Assembly: GCA_002189035.1 (NCBI GenBank)
Contig: NEEC01000004.1
Span: 4,526,001-4,590,000 of the forward strand
Direction of reading: 5' to 3'
Length of the DNA: 64,000 bases
Origin: Utricularia gibba
Taxonomy: Eukaryota > Streptophyta > Magnoliopsida > Lamiales > Lentibulariaceae
Both the position numbers and the translations under genes were made by a program. The notes beneath the pieces are model-generated. The model was not told the DNA's origin. It did no database searches and saw only the letters and a program-made list of their open reading frames with translations. Positions 2,776-60,650 of this stretch are shown here, piece after piece (positions within the stretch are counted from its first letter, which is position 1; each line of letters opens with the position of its first letter).

Positions 2776-4223
2776 ATGGGGAAGACGGGGAGGTGGATAA
2801 AGCACTTGTTTGCTGGGAAGAAGGATGTCAAGTCCCAAGCTTGTAACGGGAATGATCACCCTCCGGGGAAGGAGAGGCGGCGGTGGAGCTTCCGGGGTTC
2901 TGTGGGGAGTCGACCAGAGAGGGGATCAATGGATCACGCTGCAGCTTCGGGGATTGTGGTGCTGAGAATGATGCCAAGAAGCATGCTCTTGCAGTAGCAG
3001 ACTTGGCTGTCGCTACTGCTGCTGCTGCTGATGCTGCTGTCGCGGCTGCCAAGGCAGCTGCTGCGGTGATTCAGTTGACAACGGCTGCTGCATCTGGTCA
3101 AGGGTACGGAATGGATGTGGCAGAGGCTGCTGCGATTAGGATACAGTCCGTTTTCAGAGCTCATTTGGTACGGGTTATGCTTGAGTTTCTGTAGATCCGA
3201 AGCTTAGGAATCACCCATATAAATTCTTGTTGTTTTCAGGCAAGAAAGGCTCTCAACGCATTGAGAGGATTGGTGAAGCTGCAAGCACTCGTTCGTGGAC
3301 ATCTGGTGAGAAAACAAGCTACTGCAACATTGAGGTGTATGCAAGCATTGATCACGGTTCAAGCTCGGGCTCGAGCACACCGCCTTCAAATGGCTGCAGC
3401 GAATGAGACCAAGGAATTTGATAAGAAAAAGCACCACAATGGAAAATTCACTCTTGTGAATCGCACCAGAAATTTAAACAACGTAAGTAAATTAATTTGC
3501 TTCAAAAAGGCAATTTTGAATCCAAATGTACCGTGTTTTCCGTCCGACTTGCAGGATTGCGAGAAAAGCCTTGAAGAGAAGATAGTGGAGATGGATTTGG
3601 GGTGCTCCAAGCCTACCGCAAGAGCAAGAAACAGCTACTCAAACCATACACAAACTCAGAGAATAGATCAAAGAATTCCAGCACACAGAACTTCTGTGAA
3701 GCAAGAGAACCAACAGGTTTCACCTGCGGCATCGGCTATGGCAGAAATGAGTCCAAGAGCAAGTAGCAACCATTTTGAAGATTACTCATTTGGGACAGTG
3801 CAGAGCAGCCCGCAATGCTATTCAGCGATGTCAAAGCCAGACCTCAGTAAAATGCCGTTTTCATATGCAAGATCCGAGTACGGAGAACCGCTGTATTATG
3901 ACTTCGCGTTCTACCCAAACTACATGTCCAACACGGAGTCTTCAAGGGCGAAAGTTCGATCACACAGTGCCCCTAAGTGCAGGCCTGCAGATGCCTTTGA
4001 TAGACAACCTAGCAGGCGACGCCCTTCTATGGAAGGGAGAAGTCTTCCTAAGGCTGTCAAAATGCAGAGATCATCATCTCAAGTCAGCTCAAATACTCAA
4101 AACTATCAGCTTCCTTGCTCAGTTAAGCTCGAAAAGTCGACAGCTAGTGAGTGTGGATCAACTGCCACATACAGATCTATTGTTGGATTTGAGGCAAGTA
4201 ATCATTTCCAGCAATCAACTTGA
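2776..4223 (+). CDS. IQ67-domain (IQD) calmodulin-binding protein, apparent frame break near the N-terminus
   Basis: Exons 2776-3167, 3240-3482 and 3555-4223. The N-terminus [17 protein letters not shown] and the [10 protein letters not shown] box are typical of IQDs. An Ala-rich helix ([20 protein letters not shown]) follows. The IQ67 region then reads [11 protein letters not shown], the conserved phase-0 intron, [17 protein letters not shown] and [10 protein letters not shown]. The C-terminal [18 protein letters not shown] block places it near the IQD19-27 group. IQDs bind calmodulin and microtubules or the plasma membrane and act as scaffolds in cell-shape control. The N-terminal block and the Ala-rich block are in different frames. 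One missing base in a G4 run (about 2894-2924) explains this and gives 434 residues; the alternative is an odd 65-bp intron (2902-2966). The last junction may instead be a GC-AG intron (4194-4274) ending in a TAG at 4293-4295. Confidence 0.85.
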
Positions 4224-4967
4224 CACAGCTGAGTGCCATCTAGCTTCCAGCACTAACATTAACTGTACTTTCAGGTGCAAGGAGCTAGGATCTAGTCTTA
4301 ACAACAACCCAGATTAAGAATTCCTGGGAAACTTGCAATAACTCATCAATCAAGCAATAATCCGGGGTTCTTACTCCAGATTTGTTCATTTGCCTTGCGG
4401 GTTTCATATTTTTTAATTTTTCACCTATGGCCTTGCACTCAGCAGCCAATATCTTCACAAATGTGAACCTGGGAGCATCATAAAATCTTGATCTTTCAGT
4501 CAATGAAACGCATTTCCAATTCAACAAAGGCCATATTTTTACATATCGCTCAATGCCACGAACAACAAAATTTCTCGAGACAGAAGCAAAGGATATTAAC
4601 GGATCAAGCAGTTATTGGGGAAGTAGAGAGAACAACAAAAAACAAACCCATTAATACCAAACCGAATTTGAAGGTAGAAAGAAATAGCAGTCCCCTGCAC
4701 AATGAATTGACTGCAGCATCTCAAGAAGGAAAAAGAAGAAATGAAATTGGAAATAAAATGTAAAATCCCTTACCTCATGTGGGCTTGTAAAAAGATGCAC
4801 ACATTGCCCCATTACTATATATAAAGACAATTTCGGGCTTGAACTCACGCATTTCTCGGCCCATCAATATAAACACAGGAGCATCGCTAGGGTTTGCTTC
4901 TCATTGAGTGTATACCGAGGTACTTCGCGGTCTGCGGCCTTCTTCGAGGATCCGCTTCTCCGTCACC
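4224..4967. other. intergenic: IQD 3' end and S3a promoter
   Basis: No gene recognised. The distal part is the likely S3a promoter. It has a TATA-like TATATATAAAG near 4815, a TGGGCC site II element on the minus strand at 4859-4864 and a telo-box at 4888-4895. Confidence 0.5.
4888..4895 (-). promoter_or_regulatory. telo-box (AAACCCTA) of the S3a promoter
   Basis: TAGGGTTT on the plus strand reads AAACCCTA on the minus strand, 73-80 bases before the ATG at 4968. A TGGGCC site II element sits at 4859-4864. The telo-box plus site II pair is the usual promoter signature of plant ribosomal-protein genes. Confidence 0.7.
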
Positions 4968-6413
4968 ATGGCTGTCGGGTAAACTGCTGTTTTTATTTCC
5001 ATTTACATTCTTCTGGATAGTGTTCTCGCATGATTTCGTTTTTATGCAAGCTGCGTTTCCTCGATGTTTGAATTTGGCATTTCTGATTATGTGCAGTAAG
5101 AACAAGAGGATTTCGAAGGGGAAGAAGGGAGGCAAGAAGAAAGCGTGAGTGTATACATATATCAAGATGTGCCCGGGCTTTGTTCCTTTTCATCGTAATT
5201 GGTAATGGTTATTTCGTTGCAAATTTTTGGTAGTGTCGATCCATTTTCCAAGAAGGATTGGTATGATATCAAGGCGCCATCTATTTTCAACACAAGGAGC
5301 GTAGGGAAGACTCTCGTGACTCGAACTCAGGGCACAAAGGTGATTTTCTGAGCCTATGTTTTATCATTTCGCTTATCCTGAGTTGCGTATCTGTATCTGA
5401 AAAGTCGCATCGTCTGGTTTTCTTGCTGCCAAATATTGTCTGATATTTATGTCAAGAATAGCAAAACATCATTTTTCTAATGATTTTATACCGGGTGGGG
5501 AATTAATATTTGGTTCATCCAGATTGCTTCAGAAGGATTGAAGCATCGTGTGTTTGAGGTCAGCTTGGCTGATCTTCAGAATGATGAGGATCATGCTTTC
5601 CGAAAGATTCGTCTGAGAGCTGAGGATGTCCAGGGAAAGAATGTTCTCACCAACTTCTGGGTAGGATTAAGTTTGAGGTTTCAGATCAGATGTGTCATTC
5701 TGATCGTGGCATCTTGAATGGATTGAAATCATGATTTGATCCTGCAGGGCATGGACTTCACTACCGACAAATTGAGATCTTTGGTCAAGAAATGGCAATC
5801 CTTAATCGAAGCTCACGTGGACGTGAAGACAACAGACAACTACACCCTGAGGCTGTTCTGCATTGCCTTCACCAAGAAGCGTGCCAACCAGCAGAAGAGG
5901 ACTTGTTACGCTCAGTCCAGCCAAATCCGTCAAGTAATACGCTGTTGCATTCACCATTTCCCTACTTCATCCTTGTTTCCCGTTATAACATCTTATAATG
6001 TCTGCACCTTCCTCATCCCCCTCTTCCTTTACAGATCCGCAGAAAGATGAGGGAAATCATGGTTAACCAGGCACAGTCTTGTGATCTTAAAGAACTCGTC
6101 CAAAAATTCATCCCCGAGTCAATCGGCAAGGAGATCGAGAAGGCAACCTCAAGCATCTATCCCCTGCAGAACGTCTATATCAGAAAGGTGAAGATCCTGA
6201 AAGCTCCCAAGTTCGATCTCGGGAAACTGATGGAAGTAAGCATCACCCCCCTTTTTACTTGTCGCATATATCTCCCATCTTTGCGCAATTCTGATCTCCC
6301 AATATCCTCCGTCGTCGCAGGTCCACGGCGACTACAGCGAAGACGTTGGCATGAAGCTGGATAGGCCTGCCGAAGAGCCGGCAGCCGAGCCCACTGAAGT
6401 CGTCGGCGCGTAA
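4968..6413 (+). CDS. RPS3A: 40S ribosomal protein S3a (eS1), cytosolic
   Basis: Seven exons: 4968-4978, 5097-5144, 5234-5339, 5523-5660, 5748-5933, 6035-6235 and 6321-6413. All introns are GT-AG and the lengths sum to 260 codons plus stop, the usual S3a size. The protein starts [20 protein letters not shown] and continues [45 protein letters not shown] and [14 protein letters not shown]. It ends in an acidic, Ala/Glu-rich tail ([13 protein letters not shown]). S3a is a structural protein of the small subunit, near the mRNA exit and the eIF3 contact surface. The first exon holds only 11 coding bases, a common layout in plant ribosomal-protein genes. The frame is intact. Confidence 0.97.
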
Positions 6414-7361
6414 CTGAGTAACCACCACCCCCGGCCGGCTTGGGATGAAGTCCGTCCGTTCATGGTTGTAATCTTCCTGTTCTCAAGAACTCTATTGCGA
6501 ATCTTAACGTTTACCTGTCATTTAATTACGAGTTTTTTTTTAAAAAAGGATCATTCGTTTATATTTGGTAATAAATTTATTTATATATTGATTTTCAATA
6601 ATATTCCAAATAGTATTATCCTTTTTTCCTATTTTTAAATATTTTTCATTTTATTTTCGTAATTCTTTCGAAAAAGTGTTGTCCTTTCCCGTGGCAAGCG
6701 CTGTCTGAAAAGTGGGAGCCGGTGGAATGATATATGCTGTCCTTTCGGAAATTAAAAAAGAAAAATAAAAAAAAATAGAGTTGTAGAAATTGTTTATTTA
6801 TTTTAATGAATAATAAATAGGATGCGAAAAATAATATTAAAAAGAGTGCAAAAGAGAAGGCAGGTTCTTCTGGTGTATGTAATTGGGGATGGTTTTGTGG
6901 TTTTTACCGAATTTGATTTCTCCAAATTCATTGGATTACCGGGGAGGAGAAGGAAACCAGTAGATTTCCCCAAAGGAGCGGTAGGCGGGTCGGGTCTCGA
7001 CCCGCTCGAGAGCTATTTGAGGAGATGCAGCAGTCGGTGCTGACTGGCACGGACAGGCTTCCTGATTTTCAGAGATAGTCTGTTTTTATTTCTTTTTTAC
7101 TCTCGTTACCAGTCTTGAAGCACTGCAGATTGGTCACGCTAAGCGAGTGTAGCTGGGGATCTTTCTCCGGACGTTGCTGCACGCGCGCGTGAAAATATGT
7201 ATACGGACGTGGGATTTTCGGGGCTGTATTATATGGTCTAGAGGGGGTCCAATCTGAGCATTTTTGGTGTGGGGTTTTTAGTATTTGGATTTTGTTGTTG
7301 TGGGCGTGGGTGTTGCACTTGGTTCAGTTTGTGTGGAGTGGTAAACCCAGAAAGAAGAAAG
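6414..7361. other. intergenic: S3a 3' region and XRI1 promoter/5' UTR
   Basis: No gene recognised. The first half is AT-rich. A GC-rich partial palindrome (CGGGTCTCGACCCG) lies near 6993. The stretch from about 7100 to 7361 is the probable XRI1 promoter and 5' UTR. Confidence 0.4.
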
Positions 7362-9608
7362 ATGAACTACGAAAATGACGGGTGGGTATCTGAATCTCAG
7401 CTGTTTTGTTGTTTTTGGATCAATGTGTTGGATACTGTTAATGCCTCTGGGGGTGTCGCCTGCTCTTCCGTGCTTGCTCCTTGGAGGGGTTTGGGTTCTG
7501 TGTTGGTGATGAGTTTATGGTGGTTCAGCGCTAGATACTTGACTACAGCCTTATCATTTCAATGCTAAATTTCTAAGCTTTACTGCGTTAAGAAATAGCT
7601 AGTTTCATTACTTAATTTACTAGTTTGTGTTCTTGCTGAATTTGTGATACACACGTTTTGTATCTCCATGAAGCAGTGAGGGTGGAGGATGGGGTTGGCG
7701 GCGCACAAATTCTAATCTTGAAGCTATTGAGAACACTGGTGACTCTCCTCAATGAATCAAATAAAGTCCTATTGCTTTCCACTGTAAAAATCTGTAGCCA
7801 GAGTGCTGACTTTTGTTTTGTGCCGCTCAGCAAAAGTACCCAATGGTGTAATGTATCTATCGAACCAAAGGGAGCGTCTTGTTGACTGTGCGTTCAGTGA
7901 TACCACTACACCACTAAGGGCTTGCGGTGGTCTTTCTCACCATGTAGCTGGCAATGGTGGGAATCAACTTTTCTTGAATGTGTATTCCCTGTTTAACTAT
8001 TTAATAATCGATTGTAACTGATGTCCTTAGAGCAATTCTTTCTCTTTGTTTTCAATGGTGAGGTTTCATTTTAAATGATGTCAAGGGTATGCTATATTGT
8101 ATTATACCATGAACCTGTAAATCTGACTCGCCATATTGGTTCGGTGGATAGGGAAGTTGCAAAGGATTTGTAAAGGTTCTAAAGCATCTCAACTTCCCGG
8201 TCTCAGCCAGTCAGCAAGAGTGTCCTCTAGGATCCTACGAGAACTATTCTCACATTTTTTGCTTGCTTTCTTTTTGAGGGAATTGGCCATATGATGCGTT
8301 GGTTGGTAGAGAGTTTGTGTTTTCTCAATTATCACATGTGTTTCTTGCATTCGAATGATCATGTAAATTTTCTAATGCAATGAGTGAAATGTCTTTTATT
8401 TTCTTGCCACCACGAGCATGTTTATGATGCCAGAATACTACAGGAGTCCATTCGAAGGAGATGGAGCAATACAAGGAGCCTTACTCCCAGCTCAAAAGGC
8501 GCCGGGTGCTCCACTTTGAGCCAGATTTTCTCGATTCATCTCTATGCAACAATGAGTTTTCGATGAGATCTAAGGTCAGTTTCCTGATGAAATCTATTTG
8601 ATCACAACAATTCATACAACTTGAGAAACCTTTGATCAAGTTAGCTCAAAAAGTGCGTTTCATGCTTTGATCTTCAGGAAACAGAGGGTCCTTTTGAGGA
8701 TAAGATGGCTGATATATCTGAGTGGGTGTCGGTATTTGCAGGTTTGAGAATCTTTCTAATTTCTTCCTTCATGAAACCTGAACAACACATTTCTGTAGAC
8801 CTGCTAACATTGTTGTTTGCAGACGACACAAATCTTTTTAGTGATGAGCATATGGATCCTTCATGTGAACGATGGATTGATGACTGCTTTAATGATAACA
8901 AGGCTCACTGTATCACTGACTATATGTATGTTCTCTGATTTATTTTTATCTCTTTCCCTACCATCTCTGACCTTTATGTGCAAATAGGATTGCATCAGGG
9001 CCTTCTGACGTTCAAACTGATCTTATTGGTAAGAATTGAAGACTCCTTTTGGTTGTAGATTTCTGTGCACCTTCATTTTCTATCCAATTTTTACCTCATC
9101 CTGTTCCTGCTCACAGAGCCCTGCAGCAACACAGTCGAAAACGATGCAAATGCTGTAGAAAAACTCCATGTCCACACAACCCAGAATATCACACTCAAAG
9201 GTCAACATCTCCTCCTCCCCCTGCTTAATACCCTTCTTTTCAATGCTCTACCATTGCAGAACTTCTCTTAAGCTTGCGCTTCCCTTTTGTTCCGGTACAG
9301 TTTGATGTTTTACATGCTGCTCTTATGCTCACCGTTCAGGCAAAAAGTCATACATGCGCACACCTCCTAAGCTCGCCTCTTCCATCATCTACCCATTCAC
9401 CTTCATCAAGCCCTGCGGAGCACATGGAGACATGACTCTCAACGACATAAATCAGCGGTTGCATGCTCCAAAGCCAGGCCCGTCTGCGCAAGACGCTTTG
9501 CATTCGTATCCCACATCTGCATTTTCCGGGAAGCCTGTGGTAGGGAAAACGAAGATTCGAACCGAAGGCGGCGACGGCAGCATCACCATTGTCAGAACTA
9601 AGGGGTAA
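7362..9608 (+). CDS. XRI1: XRI1-like protein (X-ray induced transcript 1)
   Basis: Nine exons: 7362-7381, 7677-7738, 7831-7956, 8444-8574, 8678-8741, 8823-8925, 8988-9028, 9117-9200 and 9340-9608. All junctions are GT-AG with matching phases and give 299 residues. Recognised blocks are GWGWRRTNSNLE near the start, TTTPLRACGGLSHHVAG, SQLKRRRVLHFEPD (a likely nuclear localisation patch), WIDDCFND, SGPSDVQTD, and the highly conserved end with KKSYMRTPPKLASS, IYPFTFIKPCG, AFSGKPVVGKTKIRTEGG and ITIVRTKG. Arabidopsis XRI1 is a nuclear protein induced by ionising radiation, needed for post-meiotic pollen development and linked to double-strand-break repair. Exon 1 codes only six full residues. The frame is intact. 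Confidence 0.93.
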
Positions 9609-11598
9609 GTTTCTGACCTTGATAAATTGATAAATACCAGAAACTGGCCAAGGGAACTAGCTTTTGATGAACGTTTGGAGATGGAGTTGAAGCCAACTTC
9701 AGTGCATTGCTCTTCTGTCATACCTTCGCCATGAGTTTGGTGTCCTGGATTCTGTACGGCGTGCCTCATGATATCGGGCCGTTCTCGGCCCATGGGCCGT
9801 AGTACAAACGGGCCTATAAATCTAATAGTTTTTAAACAATTATACTATGTAACACATTATAATCTGGTTGGGCCAATATCGAACCTCTTATAAGTTATAG
9901 GTCCAATGGGCCTTCTCCCGGCCCATCAATCAAATAAATACATTATTCTCTTACTAATTAAAAATTAAGGCATGTTAAGCTTGCAAAAATAATTCCATAA
10001 GTCATTCTAATAGAATTCAAAATTTTGATAAAATAAGAATTTATATACATTTGGAAGTATTTAAAAAATAATTATTCTAAAATTGATTTATATTTGTAGA
10101 TTTTATAAGTTTATTGACATATTTATTAATAACTTGTATCAAAATATTATATCAAATTAATTAAAATTTATATTATTACAATAATTTAAATACATTTATA
10201 TCAAAATTATAATTGTAACTTATTTAAAGACAGATAATAATTTTAAATGTACTTTAACTATATAGTAATACAAAAGATAATTTATAAATTATTTTTGTAA
10301 TATATAAATTATAAAATTTATATAATATGATTTTTTAAATTTATAGATTCATAAAATATTATTATGTAATTAATTTTATTTAACATTTATAAATTTTATA
10401 AGAATAATTTCCAAATATAAATCTCTTTTCATTCTACTGATAAAGACTAAATTAATTTTTTATATGATATGAGAATTTTTTATTTTATTAAAATAATCAA
10501 AATAGAAATTGAGACAAACAGTTGCAGAATTTGATTTGCTTTGTGGGAATGGCGAAGGCGGAGCAGGCTTGGGGAGCTTTACACTGTGAGGTGTATAAAA
10601 ATCATTTGTATGGGAAACCACAATGATACTATGCTACTGTTGCGCTCCTCTTTATTTGTCCTTTATTTGCTTTAGCTTTGGGTGGGCAGCACCAAATTAG
10701 TCTTTTTCGCTCAATCTTGAGGACTATTAAGCGCTTTTGCTGACCAAGAGGTACCTCTTTAGGCAGCAATTGATTCTTGAGGGCTCGCCTTGGTTGCGTG
10801 ATTGCATTGTATAATGACCTGCCACTTGGATGGATGATGGGTTCATGTTGTGGGCTTGAGTTTTTTTTGTTTTTTTTTTTTGAAGTGCATTGGATATAAA
10901 CTGGTATATGTTGCCACTGTTGTGATGCAATGCCTCTTGGAGTGTCTGAAAGACGTGTCATTGAACTGGGGAATGGGGATGGAATATGGCTGTTTGGAGG
11001 GTTGAGTTGGATAAATGAAAGCGTAACACACACGAACACATAAGGGTATCTGTGAGAAGTGGAAAAGAGGGTCTGGTCTGGTATGACTGCACTTTATTCT
11101 GTTCAAATTCTAAGGCTATGATGCTACCATTTCATTGCTGGTATCGAGGTTGTCTCTCAAGAGAAAAAAACGCAGAGAGAAATCAAAAGCCTTCCTCTTT
11201 CCCATAATTCCAGTGTCCTCCTTGTTCTCAAGTTGTCTCAATTTGATTAGCTTTTGCGTTTCTTAAGTTCTCTACCCTTCTCTGTAGTCTCACTCAGCGA
11301 GTTTGTACTGTTGTTTTTGACCGGAGATCTTTCAGGGGGAAACAGTAAATCTTAGTTTGGGGATTCTTGGTGAAGCCCAGAACAACTACACTGGCTTAAG
11401 AGTGAGTATACTTCAGAAATCAGGATCACCCATTTGCAAATTTTACAGCATTTGCAACATTCGCATGAGTTAAAGCTCGGGAGGAGTTGAAATCACACTC
11501 TAGTGGCTGATCTAGTCGAAGATCAAGTTTCTTTCTTGACAAAGAGGGTGGAGGGGGAATCTTCAGGAGATTGTTGCATGAAGGAGTAGTCTAAAACA
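9609..11598. other. intergenic: AT-rich spacer and 5-phosphatase promoter/5' UTR
   Basis: No gene recognised. A dense set of GGCCCA/TGGGCC motifs lies at about 9775-9930. The stretch 9960-10500 is very AT-rich. From about 10540 the composition is mixed, with a T-rich tract at 10861-10881. The last 400 bases are probably the 5' UTR of the 5-phosphatase gene. Small ORFs at 10629-11106 on the minus strand resemble nothing I know. Confidence 0.4.
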
Positions 11599-14468
11599 AT
11601 GAAAGATGGGAATTCGACGAGAAACAAGGTTTTTGTTGCTTATTTCTCTCCCTTTGCCTCAAATTACTTTATTTTTTTTTCTTTCTGTTGAAACGGGTTC
11701 TGATTTTGTGGAAGCTCTCCTGGTCAAAGAAATTGATCAGAAAATGGTTCAGTATCAAGTGTAGAGGCGAGGGGGTTAATTCTGTTGAAGATGTTAACGA
11801 GGGTAAGAGTTTTGATTCTCAAAAACCCATCTACCCCCTGTTTATTTGTCGCTACCTCATCTTGTGTTTGTTTCTTGGACTCTTGTAGCTAGAAAACAAT
11901 GGCTTCTTACAGAACCCAACTGGGTTAATAAGTTGGTTATAAAATTCCCGTGTTTTGTCTTGCAGCAGTTTGTCTTTTTTAGTTCCAATTTAATCTTCTA
12001 GGAATGCTTCGTTGCTTCGTCTTTTGCTTCAATAACCAATTTAATCTCCGAAGCACAAATCTGATGAAGCTCTTTAAAAATACGACCTTTGCCTAGTATT
12101 TCTGTTTCAGGTTTACCAGGATTGTTCGATTTGCATTTTCTACGTGTGCTTTTTAACTTAATGTTTCTCTGTAGGTGAAGATGTATGGAGAAGCAGTTTT
12201 CTGGAGAGGGAAACGCCTACTCTCAAGAAAACTAAGGCAGGTTAGTTGTAGTGCTGTTTTTAAGCTGTATTTTCATTGAAATTTGGATCTGCACTCTATT
12301 CTATGACATGGGTCATGAAGAGAATTTTTTTGACTCTGCAGAAAAAACTGCAAAGGCTGCAGAGCATTCCCTTTCCAACGCTCGTTCACGATCACGGCGT
12401 TGTAGAACTTATCTAGATCATCCACAGATCATTAACATACAGAATTACAGGTATGTGTCTTGTGGGCTAATCTTATATATATATTTTCTGTCTCTGGTGT
12501 TTTGGTTTAATGCCTCTTGTTCTCATATTTCCATAGTATCTTTGTATCCACATGGAATGTGGGAGGGAAGTCGCCCCATTGCAATATGAACTTGGATGAC
12601 TGGCTTCATTCTTCACCTCCAGCTGACATCTATGTACTGGGGTATGATCATTGTTTGTGTTCGCAACAGTGATGAACTTGTGTTGATTCCTTACAATTTT
12701 CTGCACCTCAGATTCCAAGAAATAGTTCCTCTGAATGCTGGGAACATTCTTGGTGCTGAGGACAACGGTCCAGCAAAAAAGTGGCTCTCTCTGATCAAGA
12801 GAACATTGAACAATGCTCCTGGTGCTAGTGTGGGAAGTGGCCGGTATACACCATCACCAGTTCCAGAACCAGTTGCTGAGTGGAATGCAGACTTTGAGGG
12901 ATCTATAGGCCTCAAAGCTTCAACCTTTTTTCCTCGCCGCTCTTTCCAAACACCTCAAGGCTGGACAGTAGGGAATGATGCATCAGCTCAGCCTCGACTT
13001 GATCGGAGATACAGTGTTTGTGACCGGGTTATATTTGGTCGTAGGGCAAGTGACTATGGACCAAGTACGAGATCTGGATACAGACCAAGTGATTCTTCCT
13101 CCAGCCATAGGCCTAGTGACTATTCCTCTGGCCACAGAGTGAGTGACTATTCATCTAGCAGGCGGACAAGTGACTATTCATTTGGTCAGAGGGCAAGTGA
13201 TTTCTCTAGATTTGGTTCAGATGAGGATTATCTACCAGGGACTCACCTAGTCCTGTGTTGCATTCTCCAAGGCCCTCGGGTGCTAATGCACCAGGAGAAG
13301 ATGCATACGCCATTCATGGTTATTCAAGATACCATTTGGTGGCTAGCAAGCAAATGGTTGGAATTTTTCTTACCATTTGGGTTCGAAGCGAGCTGCGGGA
13401 GCACGTTCGAAATGTGAAGGTTTCATGTATTGGCAGAGGATTGATGGGATATTTGGGTAACAAGGTAGTTCTCTTCATCCATTTAACTGAGTCAGTTACA
13501 CAATGAATGATTCATGAAGTTCTTTGAGTAGTAAACTTGCTGCAAATTCTCTTCTCTGCAGGGATCCATTTCAATAAGCATGTTACTGCACCATACCAGC
13601 CTTTGCTTCGTGTGTAGTCACTTGACATCCGGCCAGAAAGAAGGAGACGAGCTGCGTCGAAATGCAGATTTCATGGAGATACTAAGGAAAACACGGTTCC
13701 CTCGTGTTAACAATGCCCATGAGGAGAAATCGCCAGAGACCATTCTTGAACATGAGTAAGCAAGCATTCGTTCAGTCCTTGAGATATTGTAAATCAAGCT
13801 TCTTATCCTTCGAGTTGCATGCAGTCGGATTATTTGGCTTGGAGATCTCAACTATCGGATTGCATTACCATACCGAGCTGCGAAAGTCCTCATTGAAATG
13901 CAAAACTGGAGAGCATTACTAGAAAAGGATCAAGTATGCTTCTTCTCTTGCTCTGTTTATCCAGCTCTTCATAATCTTTCCTCAACGTGCATTCCTTTTT
14001 TTCTCTTGACAGCTGAGGTTAGAGCAGAGACGTGGCCGAGTTTTTGATGGCTGGCGAGAAGGGAAGATATATTTTCCACCCACGTACAAGTATACAGTTG
14101 ATTCAGATCGATATGCCGATGATGACACACACCCGAAAGGGAAACGACGAACCCCTGCATGGTAAAAGCTATTAGAATTTCCCTGAAGTGATTTTAAAGA
14201 TTTTGCAAGCTATTACAAGTTCTGATGCAGTAGCCTTAACTGAAGGTGTGATAGAATTCTGTGGTATGGAAGTGGCATCCAGCAACTATCATATGTTCGT
14301 GGGGAGTCCAGATTTTCAGATCATAGACCGGTTTCAAGTATGCTTTGGGCAGAAGTGGAATCAGTTCCCAACCGGTTGAGGAAAAGCACAAGCTGCTCAG
14401 ACTCGAGAATTGCAGTTGAGGAGCTGCTTCCCTTCTCCCATGTTTACACCGAACTCTGTTTCTTCTAA
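11599..14468 (+). CDS. type I inositol polyphosphate 5-phosphatase, CVP2/CVL1 type, with one frame break
   Basis: Ten exons: 11599-11628, 11715-11802, 12175-12240, 12342-12450, 12537-12641, 12712-13464, 13562-13755, 13825-13933, 14013-14161 and 14246-14468. The N-terminus [24 protein letters not shown] matches CVP2. The catalytic domain shows [82 protein letters not shown] and RTPAWCDRILW. It ends in SFSDHRP-like RFSDHRPV and [14 protein letters not shown]. These enzymes remove the 5-phosphate of Ins(1,4,5)P3 and phosphoinositides; CVP2 and CVL1 control vein continuity. An unusual run of SDY repeats lies in exon 6. At 13238-13240 the frame jumps, and one extra G (PGDSP) restores 608 residues. 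Confidence 0.92.
13055..13215 (+). repeat. coding tandem repeat, about 30 bp units (R-x-SDYS)
   Basis: Inside exon 6 of the 5-phosphatase, about six diverged units encode [43 protein letters not shown] and QRASDFSRF. As I recall it, the CVP2 reference has a single such unit (HRQSDYDP), so the array looks like a local expansion in the linker between the two halves of the catalytic domain. Confidence 0.75.
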
Positions 14469-15467
14469 AGTAAGCATAGACTCGCACTGTCTCCTTGCTC
14501 TCCAACAACACCTTATCATCCTCTAATCTTGTCTCAACTTCATGATCAGATGTAGATACTCCCCGCTGACTCGACTCTAACTCTTCCAATTACATGCTGT
14601 TAAGTTGATTTGCTACTTCAAACTCCCACCTGAAGCATCAAGACAGAGGTGTGAAATGTTCATGATCCAGTGAATGAGAGGGGCTTGTGTTTGTTTGTGC
14701 GCAGGATGATGAAGATTCTTTCATTTGGTAGTAGTGCAGGACACACAGCAGAACTGAATGCTTTATAATCATCATAATAATTGTATCCAGTTTGAACTTA
14801 ATGTTTTCCATGAAGAAGCTCCCAACCCATTTCTCCCTTCACAGCTCCTCCCTGCATCACTAGGCTTTTCAAGGCACCTGCATCCATTTGCACATTGAGA
14901 CAAGAACTGTGTCATGTTCATCGAGACTCACTTTTGTGGCCTGATTGTAATTATTCCAAATCGCTAGGCTTTTTGTCTAGTGGTTTTCGCTTTAAGGGAA
15001 CAAGTGAATTGAGTGAAAACAATGACGCGACAAGGGGAAAGCGAAATAGAAAATGCAAAGGCAATGGGGGCAGAGGTTGCAGGTTCTTTGCAGGGTGGAG
15101 AAAGGGAAGGGAGGTGTGGGACAAATAGGCATGCCCCAGAGTAAATAGGCAGGCATGCTCACTTAGCTGTTACTTTTGAAATGGAAGATGACAAGAATAA
15201 GGGCAAGTTGATTACCTTGGGTAGTTCTATATGGCTTCTCCCAAGTGTGTGCCCATGCCCAGCGGAGAACGGGAACTCTGCAACTACGGAAGGTTTTTGA
15301 AACCACGATGTATTTGCAGCGTAGATTGGAGATCCTCCGCAGCAAAAACACTGCAAAAAGAAAAAAAAAACACATTTTCGGTGCAGAAACGAACCAGCGG
15401 CAAAATTATCGCACCAAAGAGGGGTTGGGGATGACGGGGACAAGACAAACTTGTAATGAGAGAAAAA
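14469..15467. other. intergenic: 5-phosphatase 3' UTR and spacer downstream of U6
   Basis: No gene recognised. The first 300 bases are the probable 3' UTR. The remainder lies downstream of the minus-strand U6 gene. Confidence 0.4.
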
Positions 15468-15517
15468 AAAATTTGGACCATTTCTCGATTTATGCGTGTC
15501 ATCCTTGCGCAGGGGCC

Positions 15518-15549
<32 letters not shown>

Positions 15550-15569
15550 TCGGATGTCCCCGAAGGGAC
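15468..15569 (-). ncRNA. U6: U6 spliceosomal snRNA
   Basis: The minus strand starts GTCCCTTCGGGGACATCC at 15569 and continues through GATAAAATTGGAACGATACA, GAGAAGATTAGCATGGCCCC and TGCGCAAGGATGACACGCAT. It ends AAATCGAGAAATGGTCC followed by AAATTTT. The conserved ACAGAGA box (pairs with the 5' splice site) and AGC triad are intact. The T run (A run at 15463-15471 on plus) is the Pol III terminator. U6 is the catalytic RNA core of the spliceosome. The promoter has a TATA-like element and a USE at the expected distances, so the copy looks functional. Open frames across this locus are shadows. Confidence 0.97.
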
Positions 15570-15590
15570 GAACACTACTTGCTTGCTTTC

Positions 15591-15598
15591 ATATATAA
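15591..15598 (-). promoter_or_regulatory. TATA box of U6 gene
   Basis: ATATATAA on plus reads TTATATAT on minus, about 22-29 bases before the U6 start at 15569, as expected for plant U-snRNA genes. Confidence 0.8.
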
Positions 15599-15623
15599 AC
15601 CAATACAAAATAATTTTCAATAA

Positions 15624-15634
15624 CGATGTGGGTT
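15624..15634 (-). promoter_or_regulatory. upstream sequence element (USE) of U6 gene
   Basis: Minus strand reads AACCCACATCG against the plant consensus RTCCCACATCG. It starts about 65 bases before the U6 start. The gap of about 25 bases to the TATA box is the spacing that selects Pol III over Pol II in plant snRNA genes. Confidence 0.85.
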
Positions 15635-43533: not shown

Positions 43534-44192
43534 ATGTCTACTATTGTTTGTCAGAGTCGTGTAAGTCGTTATGATTCGAGACCGCGTGAGTTAACCGCCA
43601 CCCTGGTGCTGAAGCCGCCGGGATCCATGGAGGATCTTCCGCCGCCGCCGGCGCCGCCGTCGCTGTTAGACAACTGGGGGGTTCGCTGGATCATCCGTCG
43701 TATTCGAAACCGGCGCCATTGAGTCTGGGTCCCCTGTCTCTGGACCTGTGCACTGAGAATTTGGGTAGCGAGACGGGGAGCGAAATGTCCTCGCCGCCGT
43801 ATTCCCCAAGAGCGCTGGATCTCGAAAGGGGGGCACGCCCTCATCGGCGCGCCAATCGGAGACCGCCCCCTATCTACCCTCCACCGTTGATCACGATGAG
43901 CGGGGCGAGCACTCTGCAAGTGCGCCGCCGACGGGAGGAAGGGCGACTGATAATCGATGCCGTGGAGGCGCCCTTCAGGAACGCGTATCTCCAGGCGGAA
44001 CGCAGCAACGGGAGGCTGAGACTCTCCTTCCCCGGCACCGCCCAGGAGGAGGAGGAAGAGGAGTTCGACGGCGAGACGGAGGAAATCGATTTGATGAACA
44101 GCCGTCGGTGCAACGACGGCGGGTGCGGCAGAGATCGGATACCCCACAATACAGCTTGGGAATCGCGCCACCATTGGGTCGTGACTTCCTGA
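43534..44192 (+). CDS. FANTASTIC FOUR (FAF)-like protein, one frame break
   Basis: Intronless. The first part, MSTIVCQSRVSRYDSRPREL to PPSLLDNWG, is in one frame. From SLDHPSYSKPAPLSLGPLSL onward it is in another. One extra G in the G6 run at 43676-43681 joins them into 219 residues. The conserved LCTENLGSETGSE box is followed by the FAF domain (YPPPLITMSGASTLQVRRRR, EEGRLIIDAVEAP, YLQAERSNGRLRLSF) and an acidic patch (EEEEEEFDGETEEIDL). FAF proteins regulate shoot-meristem size by repressing WUSCHEL. The family is plant-specific and usually intronless, as here. Confidence 0.88.
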
Positions 44193-47406: not shown

Positions 47407-49737
47407 TTACAACTCACCAACTGGTTCCTTGAATACAACCCGAAGTTTCCTCAAACAAGATTGTTTTTTGTCCCCTTTCCCTGTCATACCGTTGACATGA
47501 ACGACATCCCTGGTTACTCCCTCCAGTAACTCGAAGAGCGGCAAGTCGAGGTTCGATCGAGTCATCTCTTCTAGGATAGGAGGAGCCTGCATGTACAGAT
47601 TCTTGCCTCTGTGAGTCACGCTCACTCGAGTGAGCAGCAGCCTTGGGTGGTCTTCCAGCTTTCCAATGAACTGTTCAAGAATGGAGAATCATTATTGGTG
47701 TCAAGGGAGTAACCACAGTTACAGTGGTCTAGTGTCAATGAAGAAGAAGAAGAGAAGATTTCACCTTTTTCAGAGTAGTGGACCTCTCTAGCTCGATGAG
47801 AACCCCAGGACCGCAAACAAGGCAATCGGGGTCGCGGACGAATTCTGTGACTTTTGCATGGAGTCCTTCAACTCCATTGTACCTGTATGATAATGTTTGC
47901 ATTGAATATCATGGAGCTTGATACTTGATCACAGTGTCACAAGATCTAGAAGCTAAAAGGCATACGCCAAGTAATTCGACAGCGTTTTGCTGCATCCGGA
48001 TGCGATCTTCAAAGTTTCTAAAGTGCATGCAGCAGAGATGATTGCATTGGTGGAAGCTATGGCAGGGATTATGTTTTTCACCACCCCTGTAGTGAAGGTC
48101 TTTTTATAAGTAGCAGGAAGCATTTGCGCGGTGCACAACCTCATTGATGCAAATAAGAGATACATGTACTCACTTGAGTCAAAGAATATGTAACACCGGG
48201 AATCCCAAAGAGCTCGGCCCTCCGGACAGCCTACAAGAACAAATGTAAAAACCAATAGAGCATGTGGATAGACCTTTGCATCTGAGAATTCCCTATCAAT
48301 AGAAAATAAACCTGTTTAGTTGATTACCTCATCAAACACCCACTGCATGTCTTCTGGATTGTCGGGGTTGAAACTTCGACTTCCATGTACCTAGTTGGAA
48401 GAAACATGTCAATGGCCTCATCAATTTAAAGGAATATGCAACAAGTTTCTGCTGTATAAATAATGCAAGAAGTTTTAATGAGAAAAACAATCAGCGCACC
48501 TCAGGCCATTTAATCAAATGAGCATATTCAATGCAATGAGCAGCAGTTCTTGGAGTTTCAGCCAAGGTACATAATGGAAATTTCACTTGTGGAGGAAACA
48601 ACCAAATAGTACACTCAAAACAAGGTGTTGTTCCAGGCATTATAATCCTAGCATGCCCCTTGAATCCTTCAGTTCCACCATCCACCATAGGTTTCACGGT
48701 TCCTTCTATAATGTTATCTTCAGAGTCATACTCTACCAAATCAAAACAAAACAAAGAGAGAAGTGACAAAGTTACTAAAACCATTCAGATTACACCACAC
48801 CTTATCAGTAACCAACACCAGTAGATTAACGAATAAATTTTGACTAATGAATGTAAACATCTGATTCATAGCATATCCTAGGAGACAGTTTTCCCTGATT
48901 AAAGGCAACTTCTTGCAAATCTTCGAAATGCTTAGAGTATGGGGAGAGATCAAACCTAGGAACCCGCAAGCCACACCATTTATATAGCTCCGAGCCTCAA
49001 TTGAATCAAGGCCAAGGACAATTATGTGGAAATCACTATAGAAATCCAAGGGTTTATCCTCAATACGGCAGAAATGTGGTGTAATATCTACACCATTGAC
49101 TCTTTCCATTACTCTTTTTGCAGCTACTTCAGCCTTTGGTTTCCCCACATCTTCAAGCCTATGCAGAGAAAAAGATAGATATACTCAGCATAAAACATAT
49201 GATGGTATGCTCACAAGAGATTCCACACTCACATACAAATCAAAACCCAACATCAAGCACGCTCAGGAAACATATTAAAAAACTCACAAAATAGTGCTAT
49301 TGTACTAGACGTCATATATACACCTGAAGAGGAACTGACGATTGAGGTTGGTCACTTCAATGCGGTCCATATCGATGACATCCAATCTCCGAAAACCAGT
49401 TAATGCCAAGTCCTTCAACAATTCACAGCCTAGCCCTCCTGCTCCCACAACCAAAACTCTCACGTACTCTCTAATGTCATCTCTCAGCTTTGGAGGCAAA
49501 ATAAAGATCGAAAAAACGCCGATCATCACAGCGAAAATGCAAAATGAAACAATACTACGAAACAACCCAGATAATCGAAAAATTGCACAGCTGCAGATCA
49601 ACCACAAAAGGCGCCAACAAAAAAAGAGAAGGAAACTTTACTTCAACGCCCGGCTCAAAACTCGGGCCAACAAGGTGCCCCGGTCGGAGAAGAAGCTTGT
49701 CAAGGTCTCTTGATCTGCTGGGCTGTGAAACCGCCAT
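47407..49737 (-). CDS. ECR1: NEDD8-activating enzyme E1 catalytic subunit (ECR1/UBA3), one frame break
   Basis: Nine minus-strand exons: 49737-49642, 49487-49324, 49158-48956, 48732-48500, 48390-48328, 48230-48174, 48086-47966, 47882-47765 and 47670-47407; 439 residues if one G is added at the start of exon 7. Motifs: [40 protein letters not shown] (ATP-binding GxGxxG), [51 protein letters not shown], the catalytic-cysteine segment [14 protein letters not shown] and [20 protein letters not shown]. Then come [20 protein letters not shown] and the zinc/ubiquitin-fold parts (CLVCGPG). With AXR1 it activates RUB/NEDD8 for cullin modification, needed for SCF/auxin signalling. Exon 7 should open GGG GTG GTG but the C4 run at 48084-48087 gives one G too few. 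The C-terminus (KEPVGEL) differs from the family, and another intron may follow the GTGAGT after PVG. Confidence 0.93.
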
Positions 49738-50218: not shown

Positions 50219-50596
50219 AGTTGGTGTCAGCATCTCCGGATGAGAGCAAGCAAAGAAGAGATTCCTACTGGTTTCTTCTGACTCGTCTGTTTCAAAGTTT
50301 TTTCAGCATGATCCATCCGCTGAATCTGTTCCAGATGCAAGCAGAAGCATCATGAATAACCTAATCACAATGTTAAAAACGGTGCAGAGGAAGGGGTATC
50401 ATCAATGTGTCCGATTTTCGACAAATTCGAACACAGAAAGCGCCATTCGAAACTGGCCGGCCCCAAAGCATGGAAAGAAGATAATGAATCACGGGCTGAG
50501 AAGATGATCTTTCTCTCAAGATGGCGAAAGGAAAACTTCATTGGACCTTCTGATTGGAATCCATACTTCAACTCATCAGAATCGTCACCCGCCGGC
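50219..50596 (+). CDS. unrecognised coding segment with two apparent frame breaks
   Basis: Not recognised. Three overlapping frames each read protein-like text: ELVSASPDESKQRRDSYW, then SSDSSVSKFFQHDPSAESVP and SIMNNLITMLKTVQRKG, then MCPIFDKFEHRKRHSKLAGP, EKMIFLSRWRKENFIGPSDW and NPYFNSSESSPAG. Each shift is explained by one missing base: in TTT at 50272-50274 and in GGGG at 50393-50396. A plausible acceptor (ATATGCAG) precedes 50219 and a strong donor (GGC|GTAAGT) follows 50596, so it may be an internal exon of a gene whose other exons I cannot place. The long single ORF here (50405-50848) runs on past the donor and its tail is probably not coding. Confidence 0.4.
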
Positions 50597-51681
50597 GTAA
50601 GTTTAACCTCTGGGGGGTATCATCTCCATCTGAAGCCCCGACCCAAGAATCCAGAAACGCAGTTTCTTGGCCGCCACTCCCCCCTATCTCTTCCACCGCG
50701 GCGATTCTTGCAATTTCTTTTAATTGCAGATAGACCCCTAAAGTTTGCGGTATTGTCCATTTTGTCACCTCACGCTCTTCTACTTCTAGTCACGTTTTTT
50801 GTTTTTAATTTTAAACACGCTTTCCAAGAAGAAACGCGTTTAAAGTGAATGCATCATCCTTAGGGACAAAACCGACATTTCCTTTCACGTTGACGCCTTT
50901 CCCCGCACCGTCTTCTTTTTTCCGCATAACCCGCGTCCCCTTCGGAAAAATGTCAATGCACCGAAAAAGAGAAAACAAAAAAAAACCGCTACATTGTTTT
51001 TATAAAAATTATTAAAAAATCGGCAAAAAAAGTTGTATGGGCCTGAGCCATGTGGGCCGAGATCTTCCAGGACACCCAAATAATAATAAAAGAAAAGTAA
51101 TCTTTTCTTTTCATTTTTTAAATCCAATCCTAAAAAGGTTACCAAATATGGTATAAAAACGTTTTAACAGTACAAAATATGAAACATTTGTTCATTGAAT
51201 TATGTAATCAATCTTTTCATTGTAAAGTATTAATATACTTAATTATAATATAATTTAATATCTATATAATCAAATATATAATATTTAACATTCAATAATA
51301 GAAATTTAAATATGTGAATGTTATAGATATAATAACTATTTTATTTATGTATATCACATGCATGCTTAAAAAATAAGTATGTGATAAATATAATCTTTCA
51401 AGATTTACATACTCAATACATATATTAATTAATCAAACAATAATTTAAATATAAATTTAGATATAAATCTTCTATAATAAACACTAAACATCTTCTAATA
51501 AAAGTTAGAAATCCTTCTAAAGTGAAAGAAGATTTGGAGTGGTTTTTATTGAGGAGAAATGGTGGTGTATGTGCGCCATGGCAATCCACAAAGTTGCAGA
51601 CTCCACTCAAAACGATTACTTGTTGGGAATCGTTGGGCAAAGCCAAAGTAGTAGAAGCAGTCGTCGTCGTCGTCTTCGTGG
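50597..51681. other. intergenic or intronic, AT-rich
   Basis: No gene recognised. The stretch 50600-50850 may be an intron or 3' part of the unrecognised plus-strand gene. The stretch 51110-51540 is AT-rich. The last 140 bases are the probable 3' UTR of the minus-strand HIPP gene. Confidence 0.35.
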
Positions 51682-53439
51682 TCACATTATGCTGCAGCTC
51701 TGAGTGTTCTCGTCGCTGAAGAGGGTGTACCCGTCGACCGGGTCGCCGCCGCTTCTGGGCTGCTCGTAGTACGGGTACGGTTGAGGAGGGTATTGCGGCG
51801 GCATGTAGCTGACGGCGGGGGGCGGCCGGGCGTACACCATCGGTTGAAATCGTTCGTTGCCGCTGGCGCGTTGCGAGTTCATCATCATTGCTGCGTATTG
51901 CTGTTGCTGATTGTACGGTACTCCCGCCATTTGATTGGGTCCGGCGGGTGAGAAGTAGGCTCCGGCGGCGGCGGCGGCGGCCGGGAAAGATTGGGGGTTG
52001 GGATTGCTGGGCATCTGGAGCATGTGAGGATGGGCCATGGGGATATTGCCGGTGGGTCCCGTACCACCGGCAGGAGCATTCATGGGCATCATCATGTTTG
52101 GCATGCCATGATGTCCGTCGTTCGGCATCATCATCATCCCCTTCTTGGACCCGTTGCCCATAAGACTGCTCACATTGGGAGGCCCACGACCGGCGCCGCC
52201 GTGCCCACCGGCGTTCTTGTTCTCGCCCACACCACTGTTTTTCCCGTCCTGCGGTGGCGCCCCACCGCCGTTTTTCCCACCTTTACCACCGCCACCTTTG
52301 TTGGTTCCACCAATGTTATTATTATTGTTGTTCCCGCCCCCACCGCCTTTCTTCCCGCCGACAGCACCGCCTCCGGCATTGAACTGTACCGGAGGATTCC
52401 CTCCGACAGCCGACTTCGCGTTCACACCATTTTTCATCATCCCCTGTTGCGGCTGCGCATTCAAAATGCTCTTCATCATCATATTCGCCATCTGCTGCTG
52501 AGGATTTCCGATCACTGGTTTCATCTTATTAACTGGGGCAGCTCCAGTTTCACCATCAAACTCATACTCGTCGTCGTCGTCATCATAATCGTCGAATTCG
52601 TCATCAGTTTCGAACTCATCGTCGCTGAGACCTTCCTCTGGCAAATTCGACTTCACCGACTTCTGATCCTTGCCGTTTGCAGCCACTTTCATCTGATCTT
52701 TCAGATCCTGTAATGCCTTCATCTGCTGAAGTTTCTGAATCTGTGGATTCTGTGCCTGAGGAGCAACTCCACCTTTCGGCTGAGAGTTCGCCGCCGCTCC
52801 TCCTTTCGGAGGTTGCTGATTCTTATTATTCCCACCTTTACCATTTCCAATTTGCAGATTCTTCAGCTGGTTTTGGTTATTCACAATGCTGGGCAGCTGG
52901 ATCTTCGGCGCAGCTCCCCAAATTTCAGCAAACTTCCCTTCCTTGTTGAGCTTCTTGATCAGTGTAGCAGGCTCGACATTGCCTGAAACCGTGACCTTTC
53001 CAAGCTCTGAATCTATGGCGGTGGTGTACACACCTAAATGAAAAAACACGCAGGAAAAAGCAAAAGATGGAGAAAGTAACTCAGACCACATCTCACGAAA
53101 CTTCCATCAAAAACAAATTTTGTGAGTAAAGATTTTGCCTTTTTGACCGAGGCCGAGTTCCCTTCTTTGCTTTTTAACAAACCAACAAGAATGATAACCA
53201 AAGGTAAATAATTTATAACCACTGATTACCCTCAATCTTGTGCAACACTTTCTTCACTTTTGCCTTACACCCTTCACAGTGTATATTGACTTTAAGAACA
53301 CAAGTCTGCAGTCACAAGCAACCCCAGGAGCAAGGTAAAAGCTTTACTCAAAGAAAAAAAGAAAAACAACTGCGGCTAGAGGCATGCTCTGCGTCAGAGA
53401 GAAGCTCACCTGAGTCTTCAGGAACTCTTCTTTACTCAT
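51682..53439 (-). CDS. heavy-metal-associated isoprenylated plant protein (HIPP)
   Basis: Three minus-strand exons: 53439-53410, 53305-53230 and 53033-51682; 485 residues with matching phases. Start [20 protein letters not shown]. The HMA domain spans residues about 10-75 with the metal-binding HCEGCKAKV (Cys-x-x-Cys) and ends near FAEIW. The rest is low complexity. A Gln/Lys/Asn-rich region is followed by an acidic run ([18 protein letters not shown]). Gly/Asn/Met-rich stretches and a Pro/Tyr-rich end then lead to the C-terminal CSIM, a CaaX farnesylation box. HIPPs bind heavy metals or act as membrane-tethered partners in stress and development. The first two short exons cut the HMA domain as in other family members. 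The frame is intact; plus-strand ORFs over this gene are shadows. Confidence 0.93.
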
Positions 53440-56254: not shown

Positions 56255-58372
56255 CTAGTTATCATGACCATCTTGAACAGGATCAATTCTGATTATAAGT
56301 GGATCGAGGAGATCAATAGAAGGTTCAGTTTCGGTGGCCAACGGAGGAGAGAAGACATCATCCCCATGTATATCCTCGTTTTCAGCCAAGGCTTTCTCTA
56401 GAGCAGCCTTTGCAACCCTCACAACACATATGATTAACAGCGCTGCAGTGGAGAAAGGAGTCTGGATTCAGTTAAGGATGATTTCAGGCGATGAACAGGT
56501 ATAAAGAAGACCCACTCACACTGATTCTCCAAGTTTATGCAGTAAGGAAACCAAAAAACAAAGGAGTCATAAAGAATTACCAGATACTACAAGCCCCAAC
56601 AGAATAAATGCCTGCATCAGTGTCAAGATTAGAATTTGTGTGAACCAAGATGAAATTTGGAATTCGATCATTGCTTTTGTTGTCTTAAAACTACAAAAGC
56701 TCTTTACCACACGGGTTTTTGAGAAATCATTCCATCCATGAGTAACATCAGATAGGTCCTTCAGAGTTGTCCCGGCATAGACTAAGGCCAAAGTGATGGG
56801 CTGCAAAAACATAAAAAAAAAAAATCTGGTTGGTAAAGACAAATTTGAGTAGAAATAAGACAAACGGAAGTGCATACCATCATGCCCAACCATGAGGCGA
56901 GCAAGTAGTGATAGAAAGGAACTGGGGTTACAGACAATAGGTAGTTCAACATGCTGAAAGGAAGCAGAGGGACGAGTCGGAGCAACAATACAATCTGCAT
57001 AGATAAAAATTTTAGATCAAAATCCAACAAGGGAATTCAGGGAAGTAATTTCTAAACCCAGAAACTAGAATCAATAGCAAGGGGCGACCTTGAAGCCAGA
57101 TTTCTGAGTTGCTAGAGCAACTGCACGGAACTTTGGGTAGTCTTTTAACTTTGACATTACAAATGACCTCCCTATCTGCTCAATGTTTTCAGTAGAGAGT
57201 AAAATAAGATAACAAATAAAACCTCTTTAAGAAATATTCCATCAATTCTTCACGAAAGGACTCCTCATAAAGAGGCACACCTACGCTTACAGCTTATACG
57301 AGATGGTAAGCTATAACTTACTGTTCGGCCAAGTAGAAAAGCAGCTCCTGCACCAATTGTGGCACCTACAGAATCAGCTAGGAAACCTATAGGCAAACCA
57401 AAGAGGTAGCCTCCCCCAGCTGCAAAATGAAGAAAAGAACATAAGTCTTCATCTAAAAAAATGGTCTCATCCTCTAGGAAATAAAAGAATTGCTTTTTTT
57501 CTTATACCAAAATATTTGTTATGATCCACAATTAGCAACATGAACTGAACTTAAAAAGTAGAGTTGATAAACTATAAAAAACTGCTGCCAGGCTCACAGT
57601 CAAAATTGACGCTGGAACAGCCAGAATCGTTAATGGGATGTATGCAACAGCTCTGCAGGGTCAAGAAACGAGAAGTCACTCAACACAACATCCAGAGTAT
57701 TCAAATCAAAAACTATTCACAAAGAATTAAGAAAAAAAAAAACCATTGAGACCAACACATACAGCATTATAGGCCCCACGGACCAAGATCATTCTCTATC
57801 CATACCAAGAAATCCTTCAATATCTACAAATAACAAAAATAAAACAACATCAGATAAAAGCATTGATTTAGAAATTCTAGGACCAAGTGACATGCATATT
57901 AACACTCTTTCAATGATTCAACTTCTTCAGGCATAAAGTATGAGTTCAAAAATAAATATGCCAACTCCAAAAGGGACAAAAAAAACCAGCAGACGAATCT
58001 ACCGAACATCAAGTTACAACCATAACCAACAAGCATCTACCGACAACGAACGCAACAAAACTAGTTAGAGGCTCTTATAGGAATCGAAGAAAAAGTTCAA
58101 GAAACTTCAAAGAATAGTCCAGATCAGGGCATTCAGTATAGTCTTGGATATTGAAAAAAGAGCAGCAAGCATCGAACTTATGGAAACAGAGCAGCTCCAG
58201 AAGACAATCAAACTCAACAACAAGAAACACGGGGGAAACAAAAGGAGTCAAAAGGAAAACCTCAAGGTACCTTATCAACAGGGAGAGTGAAGCAAGCAAT
58301 CGCAACTGAGCCAATAATCAGTACCAACAATGAAATTTTCAACGCAGAACTCCAACTGAATTTAAACGCCAT
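56255..58372 (-). CDS. VTT/DedA-domain membrane protein (TVP38/TMEM64 family), two frame breaks
   Basis: Nine minus-strand exons: 58372-58271, 57823-57763, 57652-57598, 57419-57322, 57175-57089, 56994-56878, 56800-56708, 56611-56581 and 56442-56255. With one G added in exon 2 and one in exon 4 all phases match and give 277 residues. The N-terminal hydrophobic segment is ISLLVLIIGSVAIACFTLP. The VTT core shows DLGPWGPIMLAVAYIPLTIL, GGYLFGLPIGFLADSVGATI, GAGAAFLLGRT, RSFVMSKLKDYPKFRAVALA and LLLRLVPLLPFSMLNYLLSV. Two further membrane segments and an acidic tail (ENEDIHGDDVF) follow. DedA/VTT proteins are multi-pass endomembrane proteins, with scramblase and trafficking roles shown for relatives. 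Breaks: C4 at 57774-57777 (PWG then PIML) and C5 at 57413-57417 (LGGGY). Confidence 0.88.
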
Positions 58373-58953
58373 GAAAATAGAATGAGGAGCAAAAAACAAA
58401 ATCTTGTTCCGCCAAGGCCTCCGCTCCACTTCCTCAGGTTCCTCCTCCAAAGTTTGCTTCAAAGAAGAGCGAGGCCTAAAGTTTATCCCCCAAGATTTGC
58501 CAGATTGGATTAACCTAACAAGACGATATTGCACCGCCTCACCCAAAAAAAGAAGTCCTTTTTTAGAATCAAAAACCGTTGCCGTTCACCGAATTCAGCC
58601 TATCCACCGGAAGGATCGATGCGATCTCCACAAAAGCTCCTGGGTTTCTTCTATATATCCTCCAATTGGCATCCAATTGCGAAAATCCAACACGCAGCTT
58701 CCTTCACAACCTTCGTACCCCTTCTCGTTCCCTCCCTGTTCCAGATCACTATGCAGATATGCCGCGTTGCTACAGAAGTTGATACGATCTCCCTTTTGCT
58801 TTTACCCCACCGTTACGCCATTTTTACATCTACCAAATTGCTACCTCCATTTATAGCAGCAGCATGCACCGACAGGATTTCTTGTCGGAATAGAATGAAT
58901 AAAAATATATTACACAATTTTAGGCCTTCTTTTCCGCAGAAAGGGAAGGAATT
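58373..58953. other. spacer between two minus-strand genes
   Basis: 5' UTR and promoter of the VTT gene plus the 3' UTR of the upstream PC-esterase-like gene. No gene recognised. Confidence 0.35.
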
Positions 58954-60650
58954 CTACATGATACACAAGGCGTTGAAGAGAACATGAGCAAGCATGAGAT
59001 CAACGAAGTACTGATGCCCGATTTCCCCATCCCTCCACTTCATCTTCAATGGGGCGCGACCGTAGTGAACCCCATCGTTGCACCTGTTGTCGAAGTGCCA
59101 AGGGAAGGTGAGGTCGAAGTCATCAACAACCTTCCCCAAAGCTCCATGCTTCCTAAACTTTTCCAGCACCACTGCATTGAACGCCTCCATCTTCTGAGGA
59201 TTAAACGCTAACCTCCGAGCATATCCCCCTGTTGCTACCGTCGTTCGGTACAGGACTTCCGGTGGGGTTCCTCCTCTCTGTCGTATCTCCTCTAGTACCT
59301 CTCCCCAAAAAGAGGCTGCGTACTCCGCTCCCCTAATGAACCTTCTGATGTTAGGCCAAAAGACTCCATCATGGAGGCCTGAGTTCATGATGATCGTGTC
59401 TGGGACTACTTCACCGGAAAAGTAGCTCTTCAATAGAGTTTTGTATTCTGGGTTGATCAGTGAGTTCAGGCCCTGATAGTTTCCTGTTGCATTCGGATGG
59501 CCGTTGAAGATGCTCGTGAATCTTACTACTTGTGAATGGTCATCGGGATTGGTGATATTCATTTCAAATATTCTAGGAACGGTAGCCATCTCATGTACAC
59601 CCAAGATGAAGTGAAGCAGGTTGCGTATTGTATCACAATGATTAGAGTCACCCACCAAAAAATCCATCGGTTTTTCAAGCAATCCCAAGCTTCATCCTTT
59701 GAAAACATCTTGAATGAACAATGAGCGGAATACACCCATCCATTGCTCTCTATAGATCCTAATGGACCCTCACACCATGGTTTTTCGCAAGGAAAATCTG
59801 GTTCTTGGCATCTGTATCTCCCATCATCACTAATCGGACAAGTATCATTTCTCGCATGACGAGTCCACCGTCCAGACCAAGCATCTCTGGAGTAATCAGA
59901 ACTTCTACATTGGCTTATCTCAGGCAGCTGAGATGAAGATGCATAAAACCTGATCGGAATCACAGTAACAACTTTGTCAACAGAAAATCTTTCAGGGGAA
60001 AACTTGAGTCCTTCATAATGTCTGAACAACAGAGTAATAGTCAAGTTGTAATCTCCAGAAAAATCAGGATGAACTTGAAGGGAAAATGTATAAGAGCCAT
60101 TTCCCCAATCTTGTATTGGAGGCCTAGATTTCCATCTTTCCCCTACAAGATTAGTTTCAAAGTAGTCTCCTCCCACACAATGAAGGTTTCCGGATTCATC
60201 CAATGCTTGGAAAACAAACTCATGAATATCACTAGTAGACAACAATATGCTGCTGCCATTGTTTTCTAAACCAGGAAATCTAATTCCTACTGTAGTTGAA
60301 TCTTTACAGGGCTCGCCCCCAGGAGTCAGCCATCTGTCCATAAGATTCGAAGAGTAGTTCGTTCCGTAGTCAACCGAGATCCAATGTTTCACACCGGTAT
60401 CATTGGTTGTAGCTGGACCAAATCGTGTAAGATCCAAGGGGCTAAGAGAGCTCCACTCACCATATGATCTTGTCCAAAATTCTGAATCAATAAGCTTAAA
60501 GGTAGCAAATTCTTTCGAGAAACTGCTTCTAATAAAGCAGCCAACAACCACAGCAACAAATGAACCAAAAATCAAAACTTTGAACCACAAATTAACCATT
60601 GGGTTTGTCCTAAGAACCCATGGCATTTTCCCAACCTTTTTCTCTGACAT
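58954..60650 (-). CDS. membrane-anchored SGNH/PC-esterase-like protein (NXPE/CPED1-like), one frame break
   Basis: One coding exon of 565 residues if one G is added. Start MSEKKVGKMPWVLRTNP, then a signal anchor (VLIFGSFVAVVVGCFI), so probably a type II Golgi protein. A luminal region with several N-glycosylation sequons (NDTG, NYSS, NGSS, NGSY) and a Cys-rich stretch (CPISDDGRYRCQEPDFPCE) follows. The catalytic part holds WDCLKNRWIFWW, then GDSNHCDTIRNLLHFILG (the SGNH Gly-Asp-Ser block) and, near the end, FDNRCNDGVHYGRAP (Asp-x-x-His). The two halves are in different frames. The break is at CCC 59651-59653, where WWGDSN needs GGGG. By fold it may be a polysaccharide acyl-esterase or O-acetyltransferase; the substrate is unknown and the family name is moderately sure. 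A UTR intron probably ends near 60708. Confidence 0.72.

Follow-up and report, generated by a model that had tools for sequence, protein, structure and literature searches.

Re-reading of the genes in a 64,000-nucleotide stretch of Utricularia gibba DNA (hereafter the window; C413:4526001-4590000 within a 100.09 Mb, 516-contig assembly) revealed eight one-base losses that break the frames of seven genes. These breaks are very probably (probability about 0.96) homopolymer errors left in the consensus of an assembly built from long reads alone, in all likelihood the PacBio HGAP genome of this species; we infer the platform and insufficient polishing to be their cause. Each of the genes concerned was re-read from the sequence, and the run positions were placed by script. 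All eight confirmed sites lack one base at coding-strand G runs with an observed length of 3-6, in genes of both orientations, and the true run lengths would be 4-7. The sites, together with one named in a preliminary description of the window, are as follows:

2949..2952, plus strand: break in IQD-like exon 1; a G4 is the best candidate run, judged from the frames and homeolog L006
13238..13240, plus strand: inositol 5-phosphatase-like exon; G3, compared with G4 in homeolog L007
34530..34534, minus strand: TIC-like exon, G5 one base short; homeolog L081 (C4) is longer by one base at the run
43676..43681, plus strand: FAF-like gene, G6 one base short; frame kept in homeolog L082 (C4), with Pfam FAF downstream
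48084..48087, minus strand: ECR1 (NEDD8-activating E1 catalytic subunit-like); one base missing from a G run at the start of an exon, as judged by aligning it with human chains (1r4m_B among them)
50272..50274, plus strand: TTT named in the preliminary description; gene and break not established
57413..57417, minus strand: VTT-domain gene, second break, G5; LTLGGGYLFG motif within the Pfam VTT match
57774..57777, minus strand: first break of the VTT-domain gene, at a G4; placed by intron phase and the GPWGP reading
59651..59653, minus strand: PC-esterase-like gene; G3, compared with G4 in four paralogs (L083-L086)

At most of these sites a homeolog, a paralog or a relative of solved structure stays in frame. 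The 5-phosphatase homeolog (C413:866-906 kb) reads CCAGGGGATTC compared with CCAGGGACTC, with GGGG versus GGG in the window. In the PC-esterase-like gene, the window has TGGG where all four paralogs have TGGGG. The homeologous IQD exon is open; the IQD site is not unique, as other G4 runs lie within the interval (about 2893-2952). The inferred FAF protein matches Pfam FAF. For ECR1, the homeolog on C4 is not recognisable at the site (L087 was examined), and the junction LTQ|GVVK is supported by an ungapped alignment with the human NEDD8-activating catalytic subunit. The inferred VTT protein matches Pfam VTT, although its first site lies outside the match and is placed from intron phase and motif. 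A close paralog of the VTT gene was found nowhere in the genome, and a pattern scan of bacterial genomes detected no relatives. Two further window genes with homeologs, DUF868-like and HIPP-like, have no break, nor has RPS3A.

The preliminary description had reported frame jumps, all by minus one, at coding-strand G runs for every assignable site but one. This stands for the eight G-run sites listed above. For the segment at 50219 with its TTT, the exception, no relative turned up in the rest of the genome, so that both the gene and its break are unproven. The protein lengths proposed after repair were reproduced in part: 219, 565 and 277 residues directly from the models, and 608 and 439 once exon ends had been adjusted manually by one base, whereas the TIC-like protein has approximately 1508 residues rather than 1518.

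The homeologs belong to two long collinear blocks that probably derive from whole-genome duplication, one pairing window 2700-15600 with C413:866-906 kb and the other pairing window 16000-64000 with C4:350-402 kb. The PC-esterase gene, single in the window (58954-60650), is matched by a tandem array of five relatives in the C4 block (C4:350-365 kb) and by two relatives on C98 (C98:336-357 kb). A U6 snRNA-like gene at about 15455-15632 on the minus strand is 87% identical to its homeolog including the flanks, and its G4 and C4 runs are intact by eye. The window also holds short dispersed repeats of MITE-like size at 23089-23463, 44889-45171 and 51202-51501, with dozens of copies in the genome at 72-81% identity.

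Several small contigs (C377, C316, C251, C241 and C416) repeat parts of larger ones, and gene counts from the assembly are therefore inflated. Error rates were calculated from the duplicate pairs C377/C321, C316/C412 and C251/C244 (four alignments, 31 kb), with C241/C304 excluded because it carries real substitutions. Between two copies of a locus, run lengths often differ although the sequences are otherwise almost identical: 9 substitutions versus approximately 34 isolated one-base indels over the 31 kb (a run-walking count gives 48 indels, since it splits longer ones). Within C377/C321, a 9.3 kb alignment is free of substitutions and contains five runs that differ by one base, and a 5.6 kb alignment has two substitutions and about a dozen such differences. 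The indels affect all four bases in both coding and non-coding DNA and on both strands, and most are deletions in the short contig of the pair. For G/C runs the error per copy, from small counts, is 0.1% at a true length of 3, 1.5% at 4, 9% at 5 and 21% at 6; the corresponding values for A/T runs, also from small counts, are 0.2%, 0.4%, 0% and 2%. Longer runs are thus affected more often, and G/C runs several-fold more often than A/T runs of equal length. The lengths of 4-7 inferred at the window sites correspond to the range in which G/C run error is common in these pairs.

Similar breaks occur elsewhere in the genome. A GRAS profile search in which all 69 candidates were scored revealed approximately 14 genes with matches abutting in different frames, nearly all by the loss of one base. 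Searches with blastx found ten more broken genes among the UDP-glucosyltransferases, all by minus one, and one HSP70 gene is broken as well; the broken genes of the three families are spread over many contigs. In several GRAS paralogs the break lies at or beside the RPGGPP motif, whose codons form long G/C runs. The homeolog of the TIC-like gene is itself broken at two other places, a G run and a C run. The only gain observed is in the PC-esterase paralog L084 (C4:362950-364700), which has one base more than its sisters near 964-971. Kinase and P450 searches gave mostly intact domains among the best-scoring candidates, a choice that leans to intact copies and was unused for rates. Altogether, the duplicate contigs, the intact homeologs and the like breaks across the genome strongly support the earlier suggestion of homopolymer shortening in the assembly.

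That suggestion had been accompanied by the view that the bias to G on the coding strand is unexpected for plain sequencing error. This view is not supported. Coding-strand runs of at least 3 bases number 151 for G versus 103 for C in the window genes, and 370 versus 266 in 28 kb of coding sequence sampled outside it, giving an expected G share of 0.58-0.59 among G/C breaks. On these counts the window split of 8:0 has a P of about 0.015-0.016, calculated post hoc. The firm sites outside the window comprise about 10 at G (L010, two in L012, two in L026, L029, L037, L050, L052 and the TIC homeolog) and 8 at C (L011, L013, L016, L019, the last site of L021, L025, the first site of L048 and the TIC homeolog); including the probable ones raises these counts to about 14 and 11, in keeping with exposure. 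The assignments were made by eye from conserved residues and frames with the question known, and thus not blind. Sites at which the base is not assignable (L014, L023, L024, the second of L048, L051, L054 and L066) were left out of the firm count, and those at which a neighbouring run also fits (L017, L020, the first two of L021, L027, L044, L070 and L071) are probable or ambiguous. In this independent sample, G runs are not shortened beyond C runs relative to their numbers (expected share 0.59), shortening of C runs is about as frequent as the run numbers predict, and A/T runs lose bases too, mostly the longer ones. A coding-strand G bias as a real effect was accordingly rejected. The difference between 8:0 in the window and 10:8 outside (Fisher P 0.03) is read as chance plus selection, because the window was picked for its pattern, and the strand bias in the window is exposure plus chance. 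There is a slim chance at best that a small strand-specific component, by which coding-strand G runs here are more prone to loss than C runs, acts on top of the ordinary error.

The same data bear on an alternative in which coding strands would lose G strand-specifically, in vivo or during DNA preparation, for example because G in the non-transcribed strand is oxidised or prone to slippage. Such a process would account for the eight G sites in genes of both orientations, but coding-strand C runs are shortened elsewhere in line with exposure (L011, L013, L016, L019, L025, L048 and the TIC homeolog), and the G/C run loss in the duplicate contigs is unrelated to genes, which makes this account extremely improbable. 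Only slightly better placed, and still very unlikely, are real mutations, with the broken copies being pseudogenes or alleles shaped by homopolymer slippage. Homopolymers do mutate fast, the duplicates C241/C304 differ by substitutions too, and L084 may be a true pseudogene; against this, the broken genes have open frames and a conserved exon structure apart from the breaks, and the duplicate contigs differ by about four one-base indels per substitution, many of them in G/C runs of only 4-6. Allelic differences in run length would not come with so few substitutions, nor fall mainly in short G/C runs.

The runs could also be genuinely short, with the frame restored during expression through transcriptional slippage at G runs or programmed ribosomal frameshifting, a proposal whose probability we regard as practically negligible. 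Those systems share with the window a frame change at a homopolymer, and the coding sequence downstream of the window breaks is conserved. In contrast to them, the window sites are not conserved between copies, homeologs and paralogs carry the in-frame run, and breaks occur anywhere across many unrelated families. Since most of these genes have a sister copy that is in frame at the site and like gaps occur assembly-wide on either strand, there is nothing biological to explain.

Under the preferred reading of consensus error, the consensus comes out one base short in homopolymer runs. The chance of error rises steeply with run length and, at equal length, is several times greater in G/C than in A/T runs, so that errors in coding DNA fall mainly on G and C runs. 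On coding strands G runs outnumber C runs about 1.4-fold, which gives a mild G excess, and the 8:0 split represents this excess plus chance and selection. The published PacBio genome of Utricularia gibba has a size of ca. 100 Mb, with a 6.8 Mb Unitig_8, from 10 SMRT cells (PMC8333044), and was assembled by HGAP with a contig N50 of 3.4 Mb (PMC5793159). Long-read-only assemblies are known to retain homopolymer indels that cause frameshifts (PMC8812927, PMC12007338). These known errors are likewise one-base deletions that depend on run length and shift the frames of genes, and they are corrected by short reads; nothing essential differs here, in a plant assembly in which duplicate contigs and homeologs, rather than reads, provide the evidence. 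The window is comparatively dense: its coding sequence, about 13 kb, contains 8 breaks, more than the rate of about 1 per 3.5-9 kb elsewhere and more than the roughly 3-4 that the pair rates predict for runs of at least 4; this local excess may be due to local read depth or to selection of the finding.

These results carry a warning, as one-base errors break conserved coding sequence approximately every few kb in this assembly. If the large contigs, with 10 errors in 35 kb (about 1 per 3.5 kb), are representative, the genome would contain some tens of thousands, a rough figure extrapolated from small counts. Short-read polishing is thus needed before the assembly is used to infer pseudogenes, the loss of genes or the size of gene families.
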